From Orenia marismortui DSM 5156 (GTDB lineage: Bacteria > Bacillota > Halanaerobiia > Halobacteroidales > Halobacteroidaceae), in the NCBI RefSeq assembly GCF_000379025.1, contig NZ_KB900623.1, positions 433,327 through 497,326 on the forward strand: a stretch of DNA of 64,000 nt, read 5' to 3'. Below are positions 12,239 to 40,228 of this stretch, one piece after another (the first letter of the stretch is position 1; each line of letters starts with the position of its first letter). The translations under genes were made by a program, and so were the position numbers. The notes under the pieces were generated by a model. That model was given only the letters and a program-made list of their open reading frames with translations, was not told the DNA's origin and did not search any database.

Positions 12239-13414
12239 AAATTGAACATTTTCAAACTGTAATAATTTGGTTATTTAGTCATAAAGAATTTGTTTTAATT
12301 TATCTTCAAATATTTCATCAGGGGTTAGGTAATCTAAGATTTTTCTTGGTAAAGTATTGCACCAGTTTTGGACTCTAGCAATAGATTCAATAGAGAATTG
12401 GTTTAGACTATTACCTTTAGGGATAAAGCGTCTTATAAGACCATTATGACGCTTATTAGTTCCTCTTTCCCATGATGAATATGGATGTGCAAAGTATACT
12501 TTAGTATCACTAATTTGCTCTAAAAATGACATTTGAGCAAACTCAGAGCCATTATCACAAGTGAAGCTTTTAAATACTTTTGGAAAACAATCTCCTGCTT
12601 CATTAACGAGCTTTAAAATAGCATCTTGAACTGCTTGAGCAGTCTTGGCAGGTATTTTACGAATAATTTCTTTACGAGTCATACGTTCTGTCATAGTAAG
12701 TAAAACTGATTCATTTTTAGTCTTTTTGCCTATCATAGTGTCAATTTCCCAGTGACCAAACTCACTACGATTATTAATACTTTCAGGGCGTTGATCTATA
12801 CTTATACCAAGCTTCTTTTTATTATTTTTAGTACGATTTGTTTTTGAAGAGCGTTTAAGCTTTAAGGGTAAATCAATGTTTTTGATTGTCAATAATCCAG
12901 CGTTAACATAGTTATACAGCGTCTTAGTAGACACCATTTCTGACTTTGAAAATTTATTATGAAGTTTTGCTGCACCACATATAGCATCAAGAGAATGTCC
13001 TTTTTGGTAGAATTGTTCCACAACATAGTCAATAAAGTATTCACATTGTAAAAGCTTAAACTTAGGACCACAATTTTTGCGATTAGATTCATAAACTCTT
13101 TGACCAGTGTCAGGATAATAAGCCATAACCTTTTTATTAGCTTTAATTTGAGAAACTGTACCACGTTTTAGCTCGTTTCTAATCGTATTAGAAGCTCTAC
13201 CTAAACGTTTTGCAATAGCATTTGGATTCATTCCTTCGGAATGTAATAATGCAATTTGACCACGTTCATAAGCATTTAAGTGTTTATTTTTTCGGGATTT
13301 TGGTGTATCATTTAAGTAAGTCATAGTGTGCACCCTCCTGTAATTGGTTACTTTGTGGTGATTTAATTATATTACAGTTTGGTGCCCTATGGCTATTTTT
13401 ATTTTGTTCAATTT
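12239..13414 (-). mobile_element. IS30-family insertion sequence
   Basis: Element around one intact transposase. CAAACTGTAATA occurs as an inverted pair near both ends (about 12253 and 13372-13383), and AAATTGAACA also occurs inverted at 12239-12248 and 13405-13414. The outer parts of the two ends are not colinear (4 versus about 24 bases between the blocks), so exact boundaries and any target duplication are unclear. It abuts a damaged IS3 element. Confidence 0.7.
12275..13324 (-). CDS. IS30-family transposase
   Basis: 349 residues, full length for the family. Order: N-terminal helix-turn-helix (LNAYERGQIALLHSEGM, then IAKRLGRASNTIRNELKRG), then the DDE integrase core with Asp in HWEIDTMIG, Asp in TCDNGSEF and Glu in SSWERGTNKRHNG. 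No frameshift, so it is potentially active. The start is taken at ATG 13324 because AGGAGGG ends 8 bases before it; an upstream GTG at 13333 would overlap the ribosome site. Confidence 0.93.
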   Translation of the reverse strand: MTYLNDTPKSRKNKHLNAYERGQIALLHSEGMNPNAIAKRLGRASNTIRNELKRGTVSQIKANKKVMAYYPDTGQRVYESNRKNCGPKFKLLQCEYFIDYVVEQFYQKGHSLDAICGAAKLHNKFSKSEMVSTKTLYNYVNAGLLTIKNIDLPLKLKRSSKTNRTKNNKKKLGISIDQRPESINNRSEFGHWEIDTMIGKKTKNESVLLTMTERMTRKEIIRKIPAKTAQAVQDAILKLVNEAGDCFPKVFKSFTCDNGSEFAQMSFLEQISDTKVYFAHPYSSWERGTNKRHNGLIRRFIPKGNSLNQFSIESIARVQNWCNTLPRKILDYLTPDEIFEDKLKQILYD

Positions 13415-14241
13415 GATTTTACAATGAAGCACCGTTTGTAATTATAAAAATAGATATAATCTGATATAGAATCTATAACTTCCGATTCAGTTTTAAAGTC
13501 ATTTATATACATCAATTCACACTTTAGATGGCTAAAGAAACTCTCCATAGCTGCATTATCTAAACAGTTTCCTTTTCTGGACATACTTAACTTTATATCA
13601 CATTTACTCAGTTCACTATTATAATATTTTGATGTATATTGGTGTCCTTGGTCGCTATGCAATATAGTTTGACTTAGTTTTCTTTTATTAATAGCATCAT
13701 TTACAGTATTCATAACTAATTCAATATCGTTATTTGAAGTTATTTGATAAGAAACAATTTCATTATTAAATAAATCAAGGATAGTGGATAAATATAATGT
13801 TTTATTATTAAATTTTAAATAGGTTATATCTGTGACCCATTTTTGATTTGGTTTTTCAGCCTTAAAATTTCTATTTAAAATATTAGGACTTTCAATTATA
13901 TCTTTTTTATTACCAAAATATTTTTTCTTTTTTCTAATTTTTGATTTTAAACCTAATACTTTCATGAATCTATAAACCCTTTTATGATTAATGTTTATTT
14001 TAAAATCATTTTTAAATACAGTTGTAATTCTTCTATATCCATATCTACCATTATAATCTTTATAAATCTTTTTAATTATTTCTTTAATTTTGTTATCTTC
14101 CAAATCCTTAGTGGTAATAGTCTTTTGCCTTTTAATCCATTTATAATACCCTGATCTAGAAACACCTGAAATATTACATAATATTTTAACAGTATATTTA
14201 TGACTGAGTTCACTAATTATTTGGAACTTTAGAGCTTTGGG
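13408..14241 (-). CDS. IS3-family transposase OrfB (reached by -1 frameshift), C-terminus lost
   Basis: Integrase part of an IS3/IS150-like OrfAB. Catalytic residues are intact: Asp in WVTDITY, Asp in LHSDQGHQY, Glu in AAMESFFSHLK; the N-terminal part carries the HTH_21-type GRYGYRR block. The frame is open from the C CCA AAG slippery heptamer (plus-strand 14235-14241) at the end of OrfA, so expression as a fusion is expected. The usual last roughly 20 residues after FYNYKR are missing; the frame ends CFIVKSN, reading out of the element. Probably inactive. Confidence 0.8.
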   Translation of the reverse strand, partial: PKALKFQIISELSHKYTVKILCNISGVSRSGYYKWIKRQKTITTKDLEDNKIKEIIKKIYKDYNGRYGYRRITTVFKNDFKININHKRVYRFMKVLGLKSKIRKKKKYFGNKKDIIESPNILNRNFKAEKPNQKWVTDITYLKFNNKTLYLSTILDLFNNEIVSYQITSNNDIELVMNTVNDAINKRKLSQTILHSDQGHQYTSKYYNSELSKCDIKLSMSRKGNCLDNAAMESFFSHLKCELMYINDFKTESEVIDSISDYIYFYNYKRCFIVKSN

Positions 14242-14595
14242 ATATCCCTACTCTCGATATCTAATAACTTCTTTAAATAATCATTTTCTGCTTTCAGTCT
14301 TAAAATTTCTTCTTCTGATGAGTCTTTCTTAGATTGATTTTTTCTTGTTCTCCTCTTATTCTCTAACCCTTTTTCACCATTTAATCTATAATTTTTAACC
14401 CAATTTCTAATAGTAGAAGTAGATCCTATATCAAACCTTTTTTTAATTGTTCTATAACCCATTTTTCCTTCTAAATATATCTTAACAACTTTTAATTTAA
14501 AGTCTTTAGTATAATTTTTAGCCATATAAATCCCCCCTATTAATTAGATTATACAGGGCGTTTTTTATTATGTCTACTTAATAGGGGGCACTTCA
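13425..14595 (-). mobile_element. IS3-family element, left end damaged
   Basis: The orfA-proximal end is a normal IS150-type terminus: read inward it begins TGAAGTGCCCCC, the complement of 14584-14595. The other end begins TGAAGCACC at 13425, directly after the KR codons of orfB, and matches poorly. No target duplication is visible. A deletion or rearrangement at the orfB end, perhaps linked to the neighbouring IS30, is the simplest reading. Confidence 0.65.
14229..14525 (-). CDS. IS3-family transposase OrfA
   Basis: 98-residue DNA-binding subunit: helix-turn-helix (YTKDFKLKVVKIYLEGK...TIRNWVKNYRLNG) followed by a leucine-zipper-like stretch (EEEILRLKAENDYLKKLL). Stops just after C CCA AAG, a textbook X XXY YYZ slip site in the zero frame, allowing -1 shift into OrfB. 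Confidence 0.88.
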   Translation of the reverse strand: MAKNYTKDFKLKVVKIYLEGKMGYRTIKKRFDIGSTSTIRNWVKNYRLNGEKGLENKRRTRKNQSKKDSSEEEILRLKAENDYLKKLLDIESRDIPKL

Positions 14596-16077: not shown

Positions 16078-17178
16078 ATGAAAAGGTTAAGAAAGAGTTT
16101 ATTTATTCTACCTATACTATGTTTGTTCTTATTATTAATTAATTTTTCTGTATATGCAGTTTCAGACATAGAGAAAGAAATAGCAAAACAGAATGTAGAA
16201 AAATATAAAGAAAAGTTTGGCTTAGCTGAATTAAGCACTAAGGAAGAAAAAAGGATTAATAATATTTTTGATAGATTAACAGTTAAGGCTCACCCTGATG
16301 CTATAGATTTGAACTTTAAATTATATGTCATTGATGCCCCTGTCTTAAATGCTGCCTATATGGGTGATGGGCATATGATGGTATTTAAAGGGTTATTAGA
16401 TCAAGTGGAAAATGATAATCAATTAGCAGCTATTATAGCCCATGAGATTGGGCATGGAGTTAATGATGATATTCAGGATAGTATCAATATTATTCAGGGG
16501 ATTCAGTTAGGTGGAGCATTAGTAGACTTAATAACTAAAGATAGTGAGAATCGAGATAGCAGTAATCTAATTGCTAATATTAGTATGATCTTATTAAAGA
16601 AGGGTTTTGACAGAGGTCAAGAAAAAGAAGCCGATTATTATTCAGTATTCTTAACTAAGAAGGCTGGATATGACCCACATGGTACAATAGGGGTTATGAA
16701 ATTATTGAAAAGAAAATCTGGTGGTAGTAGTGATTCAGAGTTGGCTGAGTTATTTTCTGATCACCCTAATTTAGATAATCGGATTGAGTACTTAACAGCT
16801 TTGGTAACTGAAGTTGAAAATGCTGAAAAACTATACTATTCACCAGTAGCTACTGCTAGTAGGTTAGCCCAAGGAATATTATCATCTAATAATAGTTTGA
16901 TTTATTCTACCTATACAGAGAGTATACAAGAAGCTATTAGTTTAGAAAGATTCAGTACTAATTATCAAATTAATAAAGTAATAGATAAGGTTAAATTATT
17001 AAAAACAGATTCTAACTTAAGCTATGATATGAAGTTAAGAAATCAAGTGGATGGTACTGCTAGAGTTGCGATTAATTATTTAAGTGGTGTTGAAATAATC
17101 TCTTTAGCAATTGATCTAATGAAAACAGAATATGGATGGAGAGTTGTTAGAGAACCGAGGCTTTATGAGAGCAGATAA
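16078..17178 (+). CDS. M48-family zinc metalloprotease, exported
   Basis: 366 residues with an N-terminal signal peptide ending near VYAVS. The zinc motif HEIGH is at residues 122-126 and the third ligand is in EKEADYYSV. This is the M48B/BepA-like arrangement, suited to periplasmic-side or cell-surface quality control. A C-terminal region of about 120 residues lacks a recognised motif. Its stop codon lies inside the first copy of the 77-bp tandem repeat. Confidence 0.86.
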   Translation: MKRLRKSLFILPILCLFLLLINFSVYAVSDIEKEIAKQNVEKYKEKFGLAELSTKEEKRINNIFDRLTVKAHPDAIDLNFKLYVIDAPVLNAAYMGDGHMMVFKGLLDQVENDNQLAAIIAHEIGHGVNDDIQDSINIIQGIQLGGALVDLITKDSENRDSSNLIANISMILLKKGFDRGQEKEADYYSVFLTKKAGYDPHGTIGVMKLLKRKSGGSSDSELAELFSDHPNLDNRIEYLTALVTEVENAEKLYYSPVATASRLAQGILSSNNSLIYSTYTESIQEAISLERFSTNYQINKVIDKVKLLKTDSNLSYDMKLRNQVDGTARVAINYLSGVEIISLAIDLMKTEYGWRVVREPRLYESR

Positions 17179-17465
17179 GTAGCAATGTATTTAAGCTACT
17201 TATCGATCACGAAAAGTCCGAAGGACTTGTAGGGAAGAAATTAAAAGGCAGATAAGTAGCAATGTATTTAAGCTACTTATCGATCACGAAAAGTCCGAAG
17301 GACTTGTAGGGAAGAAATTAAAAGGCAGATAAGTAGCAATGTATTTAAGCTACTTATCGATCACGAAAAGTCCGAAGGACTTGTAGGGAAGAAATTAAAA
17401 AGCAGATAAGTAGCAATGTATTTAAGCTACTTATCGATCACGAAAAGTCCGAAGGACTTGTAGGG
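17171..17465 (+). repeat. Tandem 77-bp repeat, four copies
   Basis: Copies start at 17171, 17248, 17325 and 17402; period exactly 77, nearly identical, the last one 64 bases. Each unit carries two hairpins: GATAAGTAGC with GCTACTTATC (10 bp, 11-base loop), and AAGTCC-GAA-GGACTT. The array begins inside the last codons of the M48 gene and ends 51 bases before the M16 gene. Single diverged copies of the module occur at 21111-21164 and 40061-40118. Confidence 0.95.
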
Positions 17466-17515
17466 TTAGCCCTTAGATAAAAATATATAATTAATTTTAT
17501 AAAGGAAGTGATTTT

Positions 17516-18892
17516 ATGAGAAAGACATTAAGAATACTATTAATTTCTTTATTATTATTTAATCTGTTTATTGGTGTAGCTTTAGCCCAAAAGACAGATT
17601 TAAGTGAAGAATTTTTCATACCAAAATTAGATTATTCACATTTTAAATTGGATAATGGTTTAAAGGTTTATGTTTTTGAAGACCATAAAGCCCCATTAGC
17701 TAAATTTTCAATTTGGTATAAAGTTGGTTCTATCGATGAGCCCGAAGGAATTACAGGTATTTCCCATCTTTTAGAGCATACTATGTTTTTGGGAACAGAG
17801 GCCTTAGGGAAAGATCAAGTACATAAATTAGTTAAGTCTGTAGGTGGAGTTAATAATGCTTCTACATATTATGATTACACCATGTATTACGAAGAAATTC
17901 CTTCAACAAAGTTAGAATTAGCTATGGCAATTGAGTCAGATAGAATGGAAAATTTAAAAATAGATAAAGAAGAGTTTAGCCGAGAGAAAGAGGTAGTAAA
18001 ACAAGAACGACGAATGAGAGTTGAAAATAATATTTTTAGCTCTGCCATGGAAGAGATTCAAGCCAAAGCATTTCCAAACTCTTCTCTACATCATCAGGTA
18101 ATAGGATGGATGAATGATCTTAACAATATAACAGTAGATGATATGAGAGAACATTATACTAAATACTATGCTCCTAATAATGCAATAATGGTAGTAACTG
18201 GCGATGTTGATCCTAAAAAAGTTCATCAACTTGCTAAAAAATACTATGGAGACTATAAAGCACAAGAAATTAAAAGATTAAAGAATATAGAAGTTAAGCA
18301 AAATCAAGAAAGAGTAATCAAATTAGAAAAAAGAACCAAAGTACCTATTATAGCAATGATGTATAAAATTCCTAGTGGAGACCATCCAGATATGCCAGCT
18401 ATAAAAGCATTACTTGATATTTTAATTAATAATTCTTCTTCTAGAGTTAAAACTGAGCTACAAAAAAATAAAAGAATGATTTTAGAATCTGGTGGATTTA
18501 CTATAGATTTACGCATACCTGGATATGCTTTGTTATATACTGTTCCCTTATCAGAAAATTTTATAGATCAGGTACAAGAAGAATTTGATAAAGAGTTAGA
18601 AAAAATAATTGATAATGGTGTTAGCTATAAAGAATTAGAAATAGTCAAGAAAGATTCGTTAAAAGATATTATTTTTAGGCAGAAAGATATCTCATCTGCT
18701 GCTGAATTAGTAGCTACTAGTTTGATACGTTATGATAATCCTAAACTATATCAACAGAATATAAAAAGATTAAAGAACTTAACTGTTGAAGATATTCAGA
18801 AGGTTGCCAAGAAATATTTTATAAAGAGTAATAGAACAATAGGATATATCTTACCTCAAAAAAATAAGAAAAATAAGGGAGTAGGGGAGTGA
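17516..18892 (+). CDS. M16-family zinc peptidase, catalytic subunit
   Basis: 458 residues with a signal peptide ending near ALAQ, so exported. The inverted zinc motif HxxEH is present as HLLEH (His84-Glu87-His88), with the downstream acidic ligand in REKEVVKQE. Similar to YmxG/PqqL-type two-domain M16B peptidases. The next gene encodes a homologue lacking the zinc motif; M16B enzymes commonly form such active/inactive heterodimers. Ribosome site AAAGGAAGTG; 51 bases downstream of the 77-bp tandem array. Confidence 0.9.
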   Translation: MRKTLRILLISLLLFNLFIGVALAQKTDLSEEFFIPKLDYSHFKLDNGLKVYVFEDHKAPLAKFSIWYKVGSIDEPEGITGISHLLEHTMFLGTEALGKDQVHKLVKSVGGVNNASTYYDYTMYYEEIPSTKLELAMAIESDRMENLKIDKEEFSREKEVVKQERRMRVENNIFSSAMEEIQAKAFPNSSLHHQVIGWMNDLNNITVDDMREHYTKYYAPNNAIMVVTGDVDPKKVHQLAKKYYGDYKAQEIKRLKNIEVKQNQERVIKLEKRTKVPIIAMMYKIPSGDHPDMPAIKALLDILINNSSSRVKTELQKNKRMILESGGFTIDLRIPGYALLYTVPLSENFIDQVQEEFDKELEKIIDNGVSYKELEIVKKDSLKDIIFRQKDISSAAELVATSLIRYDNPKLYQQNIKRLKNLTVEDIQKVAKKYFIKSNRTIGYILPQKNKKNKGVGE

Positions 18893-18898
18893 TAGTAA

Positions 18899-20362
18899 GT
18901 GAAGAAAATAATATTGAGTAGTATTTTGTTATTAGTTATTTTTCAGTTTATATTTTTACAAACATCTTATGCTAAAGTGGATTTTGATCAAGAACTTTTT
19001 AAAAGTTTAGCTCAGAACAAAAATAAGGTTCCTAAGATAAAAATCCCCAACTATAAGCGGGTAGAATTAGAGAATGGAATGGTTGTGTATCTGATAGAAG
19101 ATCACAAATTACCGATAATTGAGATAAATGCTTACATAAAAGGTGGAAGAAGCCAAGAAAATAGAGAGTTTGCTGGTATATCAGAATTTATGTTAGAAAT
19201 GATGAATACAGGTACTAAGAATTTTAATGAACAGGAATTTTCTAATTTTAAAGAGGTTAATGGAATTGACTTTAATTTTGGAACTAACAATGATTATCTT
19301 AGTGTGAGTGCCAATAGTTTAAGTGTGGATAAAGAGGAGCTTATTTTCTTATTAGCAGAGGTATTAAAAACTCCTAAGTTTGATAGAAGTTATTTTAAGA
19401 GGATTAAGCAAGAGACTTATCGGGCTTTAACTCAAGCTAAGATGCAAGAAGATGCATTACTTGATATGTATTATTATAAAGAAATTTATAATAATCATCC
19501 CTATTCTTTTACATATAATGTTGATTTAAGGTTAAAGGCTCTAAACAATATTAGCCCAAAATCTTTAGAGAAATTTTATAATTCTAATATTGCTCCTAAC
19601 AACACAATTTTGGGTATTGTTGGTGATATAGATGTTGATAAGATGGAAGAAATATTAAAGCTGTATTTTAATTCTTGGCAGAAGAAAGATATAAAGATTA
19701 AAGAAGTACAAGTCAAAAGTAATAGTGATAATTATGGAGAGGTTATATTAGTAAATAAGTCTGATGCTACACAAGCTAAAATAAAGATGGGTTATAACTT
19801 CTTTAACAATGATTTTAAAGATAAAGTTCCTTTTACTATTGCTAATCGTGTTTATGGAGGGGGAGATTTTTCAAGTAGGTTGATGAAAAACCTTCGTGTT
19901 GATAAAGGTTATGTTTATGGTATATATGCCCATGATAGTTATAGTCAATTGGGGGGAGATTACTATATAACTACAGAAGTAAAGGCAGATAAAGTTTATC
20001 AAACAATGCAAGAGATAAAAAAAGAGATGCTAGCTATTAAGGAAGGGAAGAGAAAGATAAAGAAAGGAGAGCTATTTGAAATTGTAAATCTCTATAATGC
20101 TTTTTACCCTAAAGCCTATAGTTCCAAAATAAAGGTGATAAATCAACTTATGTATAATGTTGAAATTATGAATCGAGAAGTAGATTATATAAATGATTTT
20201 ATAGAAGAATATAATAGTCTTAGTCAGAAAGAGGTGCAGAAAGTATTTTCTAAATATAGCTATCCAAATAAATTTATAACTGTAATAGTAGGAAGAAAAG
20301 AAGAGATACTACCAATTTTCAAAGAGAAAGATATTGATATAAAGGTTATAGAGAGTAATTAA
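18899..20362 (+). CDS. M16-family peptidase homologue without zinc motif
   Basis: 487 residues, GTG start 6 bases after the preceding M16 stop, with a signal peptide (SILLLVIFQFIFLQTSYA). The M16 fold blocks are recognisable (LENGMVVYLIEDHKLPIIEI; GGGDFSSRLMKNLRVDKGYVYG), but the HxxEH position reads EFMLEM, so it cannot bind zinc in the standard way. It is expected to be the non-catalytic partner that closes the proteolytic chamber. Ends at a shared bidirectional terminator. Confidence 0.87.
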   Translation: MKKIILSSILLLVIFQFIFLQTSYAKVDFDQELFKSLAQNKNKVPKIKIPNYKRVELENGMVVYLIEDHKLPIIEINAYIKGGRSQENREFAGISEFMLEMMNTGTKNFNEQEFSNFKEVNGIDFNFGTNNDYLSVSANSLSVDKEELIFLLAEVLKTPKFDRSYFKRIKQETYRALTQAKMQEDALLDMYYYKEIYNNHPYSFTYNVDLRLKALNNISPKSLEKFYNSNIAPNNTILGIVGDIDVDKMEEILKLYFNSWQKKDIKIKEVQVKSNSDNYGEVILVNKSDATQAKIKMGYNFFNNDFKDKVPFTIANRVYGGGDFSSRLMKNLRVDKGYVYGIYAHDSYSQLGGDYYITTEVKADKVYQTMQEIKKEMLAIKEGKRKIKKGELFEIVNLYNAFYPKAYSSKIKVINQLMYNVEIMNREVDYINDFIEEYNSLSQKEVQKVFSKYSYPNKFITVIVGRKEEILPIFKEKDIDIKVIESN

Positions 20363-20997: not shown

Positions 20998-21110
20998 ATT
21001 GATACCACCTTTTTTCTCTAGTGTACGGTTAACAGTTAAAGAATAAATTAAAATATTTTTAAGTTTTTAACTGTAAACTGTACAATAAACTGTACTTTGT
21101 CAACTGCTTT

Positions 21111-21164
21111 CCTCCGAGTCTTTCAGACTTTTCGTGGATTATAAGTGCTAAGGGCACTTATAAT
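21111..21164 (-). repeat. Two-hairpin module, solitary copy between pdxS and pdxT
   Basis: On the minus strand: hairpin ATTATAAGTGC/GCACTTATAAT, then CCACGAAAAGTCT, loop GAA, AGACTCGGAGG. The order and linker match the 77-bp unit at 17171 while stem sequences differ with compensating changes, suggesting conserved structure. As it lies in the pdxS-pdxT transcript it may affect the ratio of the two subunits. Confidence 0.7.
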
Positions 21165-40054: not shown

Positions 40055-40228
40055 ACTATACCTACAAGTCCTAATGGACTTTTCGTGGTAAACCTACTGT
40101 CGGACTGACAGGAATTTACGCTTTTGGAGAGAGTACAAGACCAACTTAATCTAATTGGATAATTAGCTTTAAGTAGGCAATTCTCGTTGAAAAAAGAATC
40201 CCCGCAGGCTTGCCTCGGGGTAGGTCAA
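40055..40228 (+). ncRNA. Probable omega-RNA region and right end of the TnpB unit
   Basis: Directly downstream of tnpB. Two hairpins come first: CAAGTCC/GGACTT at 40064-40081 followed by TTCGTGG, then GTAAA.../...TTTAC enclosing CTGTC/GACAG (40087-40118). Then a linker and the terminal hairpin 40200-40220. By analogy with characterised TnpB systems the guide would be the roughly 16 bases after the right end (around 40229-40244), here the pyrR promoter region. Analogy only; boundaries not proven. Confidence 0.45.
40061..40118 (-). repeat. Two-hairpin module, copy downstream of tnpB
   Basis: On the minus strand it reads hairpin, CCACGAAAAGTCC, loop, GGACTTGTAGG, the same order as in the 77-bp units at 17171-17465 (CACGAAAAGTCC-GAA-GGACTTGTAGG) and the pdx copy at 21111-21164. 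Confidence 0.7.

Follow-up and report, generated by a model that had tools for sequence, protein, structure and literature searches.

Rickettsia palindromic elements are insertions inside protein genes that keep the reading frame, and mitochondrial double-hairpin or repetitive hairpin-forming elements are reportedly small hairpins spread through the genome. Hairpins are also known to provoke replication slippage. Rickettsia palindromic elements are named beside REP elements in one source (PMC3733652), GTAG-REP elements carry the conserved tetranucleotide GTAG directly 5' of their palindrome (PMC8266576), and mobile ORFs of Glomus and Allomyces mitochondria carry a foreign gene C-terminus (PMC3630166). 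The palindromic elements of Orenia and its relatives reported here resemble GTAG-tagged REP elements in being high-copy palindromes of 20-40 bp with an unpaired GTAG-like tag at one end, in lying mostly between genes and close to gene 3' ends with some copies within ORFs, in the complementary changes of their stems and in the grouping of copies with flanking DNA (PMC3733652); at least 55 copies are present in the source genome, and 7 of 140 distinct copies lie inside a called ORF. They differ in that the tag, which is GNAGG-like, stands 3' of the hairpin, whereas the REP tag stands 5' (PMC8266576). The tag here often reads GAAGG or GGAGG, a second, variable hairpin accompanies about a third of the copies, no RAYT gene flanked by the element was found, no transposase tracks the copies, and displaced gene ends lie beside cores. 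As tag position and a tracking RAYT are both defining features of the REP class, we call the family REP-like rather than REP. With its reversed tag, its high copy number and no transposase to match, the palindromic element broadens the REP-type class and raises the question of its mover. The likeness to Rickettsia palindromic elements is in frame-keeping palindromic insertions in protein genes (here a tnpB and an MCP gene); the present element is shorter and has a conserved tag, a distinction drawn by description and not by sequence comparison. Mitochondrial double-hairpin elements share the small dispersed hairpins and reside in other genomes, again compared by description only. The open-licence PMC literature searched yielded no published description of this repeat family.

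The locus under study lies in a 64-kb window, by which we mean the whole stretch of DNA that was analysed, between an M48 metalloprotease gene and the first of two M16-like genes. Its features are as follows.

16078-17178, + strand: gene for an M48 metalloprotease, upstream of the array (366 aa; best NCBIfam match LoiP, below its cut-off)
17171-17247, + strand: array unit 1 (77 bp), covering the M48 stop codon and the codons just before it
17174-17204, + strand: hairpin A of unit 1, containing the M48 stop codon; equivalent hairpins in units 2-4
17205-17235, + strand: core hairpin of unit 1 (covariance model R1, 47.2 bits)
17248-17324, + strand: array unit 2
17282-17312, + strand: core hairpin of unit 2 (model R1, 47.2 bits)
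17325-17401, + strand: array unit 3
17359-17389, + strand: core hairpin of unit 3 (model R1, 47.2 bits)
17402-17465, + strand: array unit 4, partial, without the 13-bp spacer
17436-17466, + strand: core hairpin of unit 4 (model R1, 45.1 bits)
17516-18892, + strand: M16 peptidase-like gene downstream of the array (458 aa; best NCBIfam match YfmH family, below cut-off)
18899-20362, + strand: second M16-like gene (best NCBIfam match YfmF family, below cut-off)

The array itself is real and, as an array, ordinary. A sequence-only reading had described it as a nearly undiverged four-copy repeat of 77 bp with two hairpins per unit, either recent or homogenised, and the analysis bears this out. Tandem Repeats Finder gives a period of 77, 3.8 copies, 99% matches and zero indels for 17171-17465, and the near-identical units differ in the final base of the spacer (AAAAGG vs AAAAAG) and at the divergent junction past copy 4 (GTAGGG/TTAGCC) and in nothing else. 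Each unit runs from hairpin A, a perfect 10-bp stem of GATAAGTAGC and GCTACTTATC around an 11-nt loop, through GAT to the core CACGAA-AAGTCC-GAA-GGACTT-GTAGGG, in which AAGTCC-GAA-GGACTT forms the second hairpin, and then to a 13-bp spacer; both hairpins are present in every unit. The predicted fold of a single unit beats 200 of 200 shuffles both as RNA (z -4.3) and as DNA (z -5.0), the predicted RNA fold of the whole array reaches z -7.7, and the array core, allowing up to 3 mismatches, occurs four times in the window vs 0 expected from shuffles. That the array starts in the M48 stop region and runs toward M16 was likewise read correctly: the left arm of the first hairpin A includes the M48 stop codon, TAA at 17176-17178, and 50 bp separate the array end from the M16 ATG at 17516. 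The array was also rightly judged not to be a CRISPR, since all units share their inter-hairpin sequence and there are no unique spacers. Rfam models gave no match at 17171-17465; a hammerhead or other ribozyme, part of a T-box and an integron attC were dropped by eye, there being no Rfam match and a conserved motif that does not fit. Transposase-like ORFs, by eye IS30-like and IS3-like, lie upstream of the array at window positions 12275-14525.

What the sequence-only reading missed, although the array, the hairpins and the exclusion of a CRISPR stood, is that the core of the array belongs to a dispersed family, partial unit copies of which a DNA search found elsewhere in the source genome (G000) and in its relatives. 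The family core is about 31 nt long and consists of CACGRA, a Watson-Crick stem and G(T/A/G)AGG; a degenerate pattern for it matches 21 times in the source genome vs 0 for the backward control. The covariance-model search of the genome which that reading had proposed was carried out with model R1, built from 27 aligned cores, and was extended to seven relatives of the same family (G001-G007), five genomes of the sister family (G008-G012) and eight genomes from other orders of the class (G013-G020). At E<=0.001 it returned at least 55 core matches in the source genome and at least 74, 93, 27, 35, 4, 95 and 132 in G001-G007, respectively, with 150 candidates scored per genome and all per-genome counts being lower bounds. 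The sister family gave 0, 1, 0, 1 and 2 matches at the same threshold, and the eight genomes of other orders gave none at E<=0.1. Model R1 misses diverged variants, for example that at cimA of G005, so that both the copy counts and the host range are minimal. A strict core pattern run over 84,980 species matched 6 stretches, in Natroniella, Halanaerobacter and Orenia only (the source's own genome perhaps excluded). For a set of distinct copies, 160 matches were listed, 11 weak ones and 5 duplicate views were removed by hand and 143 stretches were kept, which further merging reduced to the 140 distinct copies used for the hairpin A and ORF-placement counts. We consider it highly probable that the array arose when a two-hairpin member of a dispersed family of non-autonomous palindromic elements was recently amplified in tandem, to about four copies, and that this family is confined, within the searches made, to the Halobacteroidaceae; read-outs of the M48-M16 operon should treat the array as a mobile-element amplification and not as a dedicated regulator. 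Two further members lie within the window.

21109-21139, - strand: family member of the two-hairpin type between pdxS and pdxT, 4 nt past the pdxS stop; same place in G002
40059-40090, - strand: family member with a single hairpin, lying antisense to an IS605-type tnpB gene at its 3' end

At the DNA level the element is a hairpin measuring some 31-36 bp; some copies stand by themselves, and others have hairpin A, whose sequence varies, immediately on their 5' side. Its stem is maintained by paired changes: among the 27 aligned cores there are 37 double changes vs 1 one-sided change, a result reached in 0 of 500 shuffles. The six inner stem pairs of 112 cores (113 distinct cores, one set aside) comprise 654 Watson-Crick cells, 6 G-T, 7 A-C and 5 otherwise unpaired. 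The G-T and A-C exceptions are equally frequent, with no G-U excess, which suggests a constraint on DNA or on both strands rather than on the sense RNA. Selection of the core stem at the RNA level is thus not supported, and the strict Watson-Crick pairing of the sequences speaks against selection mainly as RNA. In the same 112 cores the tag 3' of the stem is GTAGG in 67, GAAGG in 23 and GGAGG in 10, and the 5' side reads CACGAA or CACGGA in 93; the GAA and GTA (or GAA) triplets that flank the stem could, judged by eye, form putative sheared pairs. In 50 of the 140 copies, vs a shuffle mean of 1.3, hairpin A ends no more than 3 nt from the core; across subfamilies its sequence is variable and its position constant.

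The two types of copy are placed differently with respect to genes. Of 47 two-hairpin copies, 19 start no more than 12 nt from a stop codon on the sense strand, vs 2.3% of random positions at the same loci, and one is placed in this way on the opposite strand; many of the 28 copies without such a sense stop are later units of tandem groups. Single-hairpin copies start at a stop codon in 1 of 86 cases. The offset of the M48 array from its stop, -5 nt, is typical of two-hairpin copies, and the upstream gene is co-stranded with the element for 88 of the 116 intergenic cores whose upstream ORF was scored. Sense-strand position right at stop codons, the strong predicted RNA fold of the whole array and the retention of two-hairpin elements after mnmE in G000, G001, G002 and G004 (by eye, three units in the first and one in each of the others, with none in G003, G005, G006 and G007) would all suit a functional RNA device in the M48-M16 message, that is, a copy-number-dependent attenuator, processing site or stabiliser setting M16 output, a tuning role first suggested in the sequence-only reading. 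We think this unlikely, as A-C exceptions in the stem are as frequent as G-T, unlike in an RNA-selected stem, no intrinsic terminator (GC-rich stem with a T run) lies in 16900-17700, and array and core are absent from the M48 3' end in all 7 orthologues found among the relatives. Promoters in 16900-17700 show no clear excess (5 vs 3.1 +/- 1.7 in shuffles). In G001, the only relative whose downstream side was long enough to judge, the gene after the M48 orthologue is by eye unlike M16. An element that is merely tolerated beside a stop codon needs no function.

For the array as an amplified member of a mobile family, we propose the following course of events. The element would spread as DNA, probably through a folded single strand, and copies within operons would persist wherever hairpin A falls on a stop codon and no harm comes to the gene product. 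A unit of about 77 bp so placed would then have been multiplied via slippage or unequal recombination. The resulting eight hairpins in the mRNA would probably give the M48 message REP-like structures at its 3' end and, as a guess, may space or dampen M16.

Movement of the element is best documented in an IS605-type tnpB gene, where comparison of the source genome with the same gene in G007 reveals an exact 36-bp in-frame insertion, GTTCTACCACGAAGAGTTCTTATAGAACTCGTAGGG or its one-base shift, between flanks that are 94.5% (91 nt) and 95% (200 nt) identical. No target duplication is present (at most 1 nt of ambiguity), as would be expected of a PATE-like, IS200/IS605-derived element, on the evidence of the single clean empty/filled pair that was obtained. 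The second core, antisense at the 3' end of tnpB, also distinguishes the two copies of the gene. Elsewhere one core interrupts a tnpA gene and one lies in frame within a chemotaxis receptor (MCP) gene, neither with an empty partner. The exact tnpB insertion weighs against the view of both the array and the dispersed copies as inert debris, produced by slippage at a hairpin-forming sequence and spread by segmental duplication only. Tandem copies are common in the family and hairpins have a known tendency to cause slippage, as that view would have it; against it, cores at unrelated loci with unrelated flanks still share their sequence and tag, and the stem is strictly conserved through compensatory changes. 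We regard it as quite improbable.

A mobile family calls for a mover, and the absence of a target duplication at tnpB, the hairpin with its adjoining unpaired GNAGG tag and the several cores in or beside tnpA/tnpB elements are consistent with miniature single-strand transposons of the IS200/IS605 or RAYT type, REP- or PATE-like, on which a Y1 enzyme would act in trans and cut near the GTAG-like tag. The source genome also encodes a RAYT-like protein (NF047646, 61 bits, under the 80-bit cut-off). Cores stand both inside tnpA/tnpB elements and at their 3' end, and in either orientation. The distribution of such genes does not follow the cores. RAYT relatives are found in 4 of 13 genomes, as a fragment in G002 and otherwise in G000, G006 and G007. 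In G001 and G002, which hold at least 74 and 93 cores, the Y1 matches are fragments or are broken by internal stops, whereas 9 Y1 matches accompany 1 core in G011. Core copy number across the 13 genomes is tracked by no RAYT or Y1 gene, and a Y1 or RAYT mover, the first mechanistic guess, is unsupported on this count. A core lies about 250 bp from the RAYT-like gene of G006; none lies within the 3.4-kb RAYT locus of the source genome, and the tag stands 3' of the palindrome rather than 5' as in REPs (PMC8266576). The single-strand route is in our judgement a possibility that we doubt more than we credit. Two further observations concern repeats of the source genome: a MITE-like repeat with terminal GCGACA/TGTCGC-like ends carries the core inside it at four loci, and at five loci a repeated stretch has an IS605-right-end-like terminus, no tnpB match and the core in mid-stretch, possibly a stand-alone guide-RNA element.

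Many cores are accompanied by a repeat of the DNA that precedes them. In 35 of the 143 copies, a count inflated by tandem groups, the sequence from the 3' end of the core onward repeats the pre-core sequence, vs 1.6% of 561 mismatched pairs. For four genes, identified by eye through their protein ends as cimA, uvrB, trpB and pgk, the repeated sequence is the gene's own 3' end: the gene body runs into the used end and its stop, a spacer and a core follow, then comes a second end, and the series may continue. No such displaced gene end was seen at the M48 array. Spacers of about 10-80 bp separate gene end from core and differ among units. Cassettes in the same codon region of cimA occur in G000, G002, G003 and G004, and in G005 with a diverged hairpin; those of uvrB, in G000, G002 and G006, hold one to three displaced copies of the last 18-22 codons or so, each preceded by a core and diverged chiefly at synonymous sites; pgk cassettes occur in G000, G003 and G004, and trpB cassettes in G000 and G003.

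The displaced ends were compared with the used ones. Of 59 alignments, 26 junctions that start at or cross the core junction were kept, the other 33 being away from cores or weak, and in these the second and used ends share 169 equal codons, with 97 synonymous and 25 non-synonymous differences; several of the 26 share one array and are not independent. The non-synonymous share of changes is 20%, vs about 80% under neutral simulation (0 of 500 simulations as low), and the 16 pairs with at least 3 differences show 91 synonymous vs 20 non-synonymous changes; as displaced ends were found by protein similarity, decayed copies are under-counted and the synonymous excess is favoured. The first displaced cimA end of the source genome, with its spacer and core start, matches the used end of G001 and what lies downstream of it at 78/91 positions (score 115; next 64), and the second best fits the used end of G002 (86/118; score 64, next 58). 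The tag keeps the same codon phase to the displaced end in 21 of 23 scored junctions, a rough count (3 of the 26 had no recognised tag, and those of pgk in G003 and of two cimA junctions in G005 were picked inside the hairpin), and this constancy would be consistent with an insertion made in frame at an earlier time. A plain long target-site duplication explains the order of the parts; it does not explain the mostly synonymous differences, nor the match of a displaced cimA end in the source genome to the used end of G001. Taken together, the synonymous-biased differences, the order of parts and the G001 and G002 matches indicate that gene ends have been replaced and that the older ones remain, separated from the new by a core.

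We tentatively suggest, while holding it somewhat short of probable, that the hairpins cause the 3' ends of cimA, uvrB, pgk and trpB to be replaced again and again in several genera, as a bacterial, endonuclease-free counterpart of the gene-end cassettes of fungal mitochondria. A core would insert in frame near a conserved gene end, and its hairpin would be broken or would stall replication. Repair with DNA of a diverged strain would then lay a new end with its own spacer in front, and the core and old end would be displaced, so that the site is rebuilt and open to another round. The fungal mobile ORFs show the same succession of used end, element and displaced native end, with two ends that differ mostly synonymously and a displaced end that resembles that of a relative; they differ in having a LAGLIDADG or GIY-YIG endonuclease ORF between the ends, where the present cassettes have a hairpin and a short spacer and no homing endonuclease (PMC3630166). 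If hairpins do promote gene-end exchange, a gene-less element of 36 bp would newly be seen to shape core metabolic genes.

Duplicated DNA was noted beside cores in other settings as well. Four tandem units of about 134 bp lie between feoA and feoB in the source genome (by eye; similar in G001), and each repeats the feoB ribosome-binding site and first codons ahead of the core. A putative T-box leader, judged by eye, contains two-hairpin elements in tandem with duplicated DNA in G006 and again in G007. A tRNA gene that ends in GGGGGTACCA, by eye tRNA-Glu, precedes the core at four loci of the source genome and one of G001, and after these cores the sequence again resembles a tRNA end, reading GGGGTACCA, GGGGTACTA or GGGATACCA.
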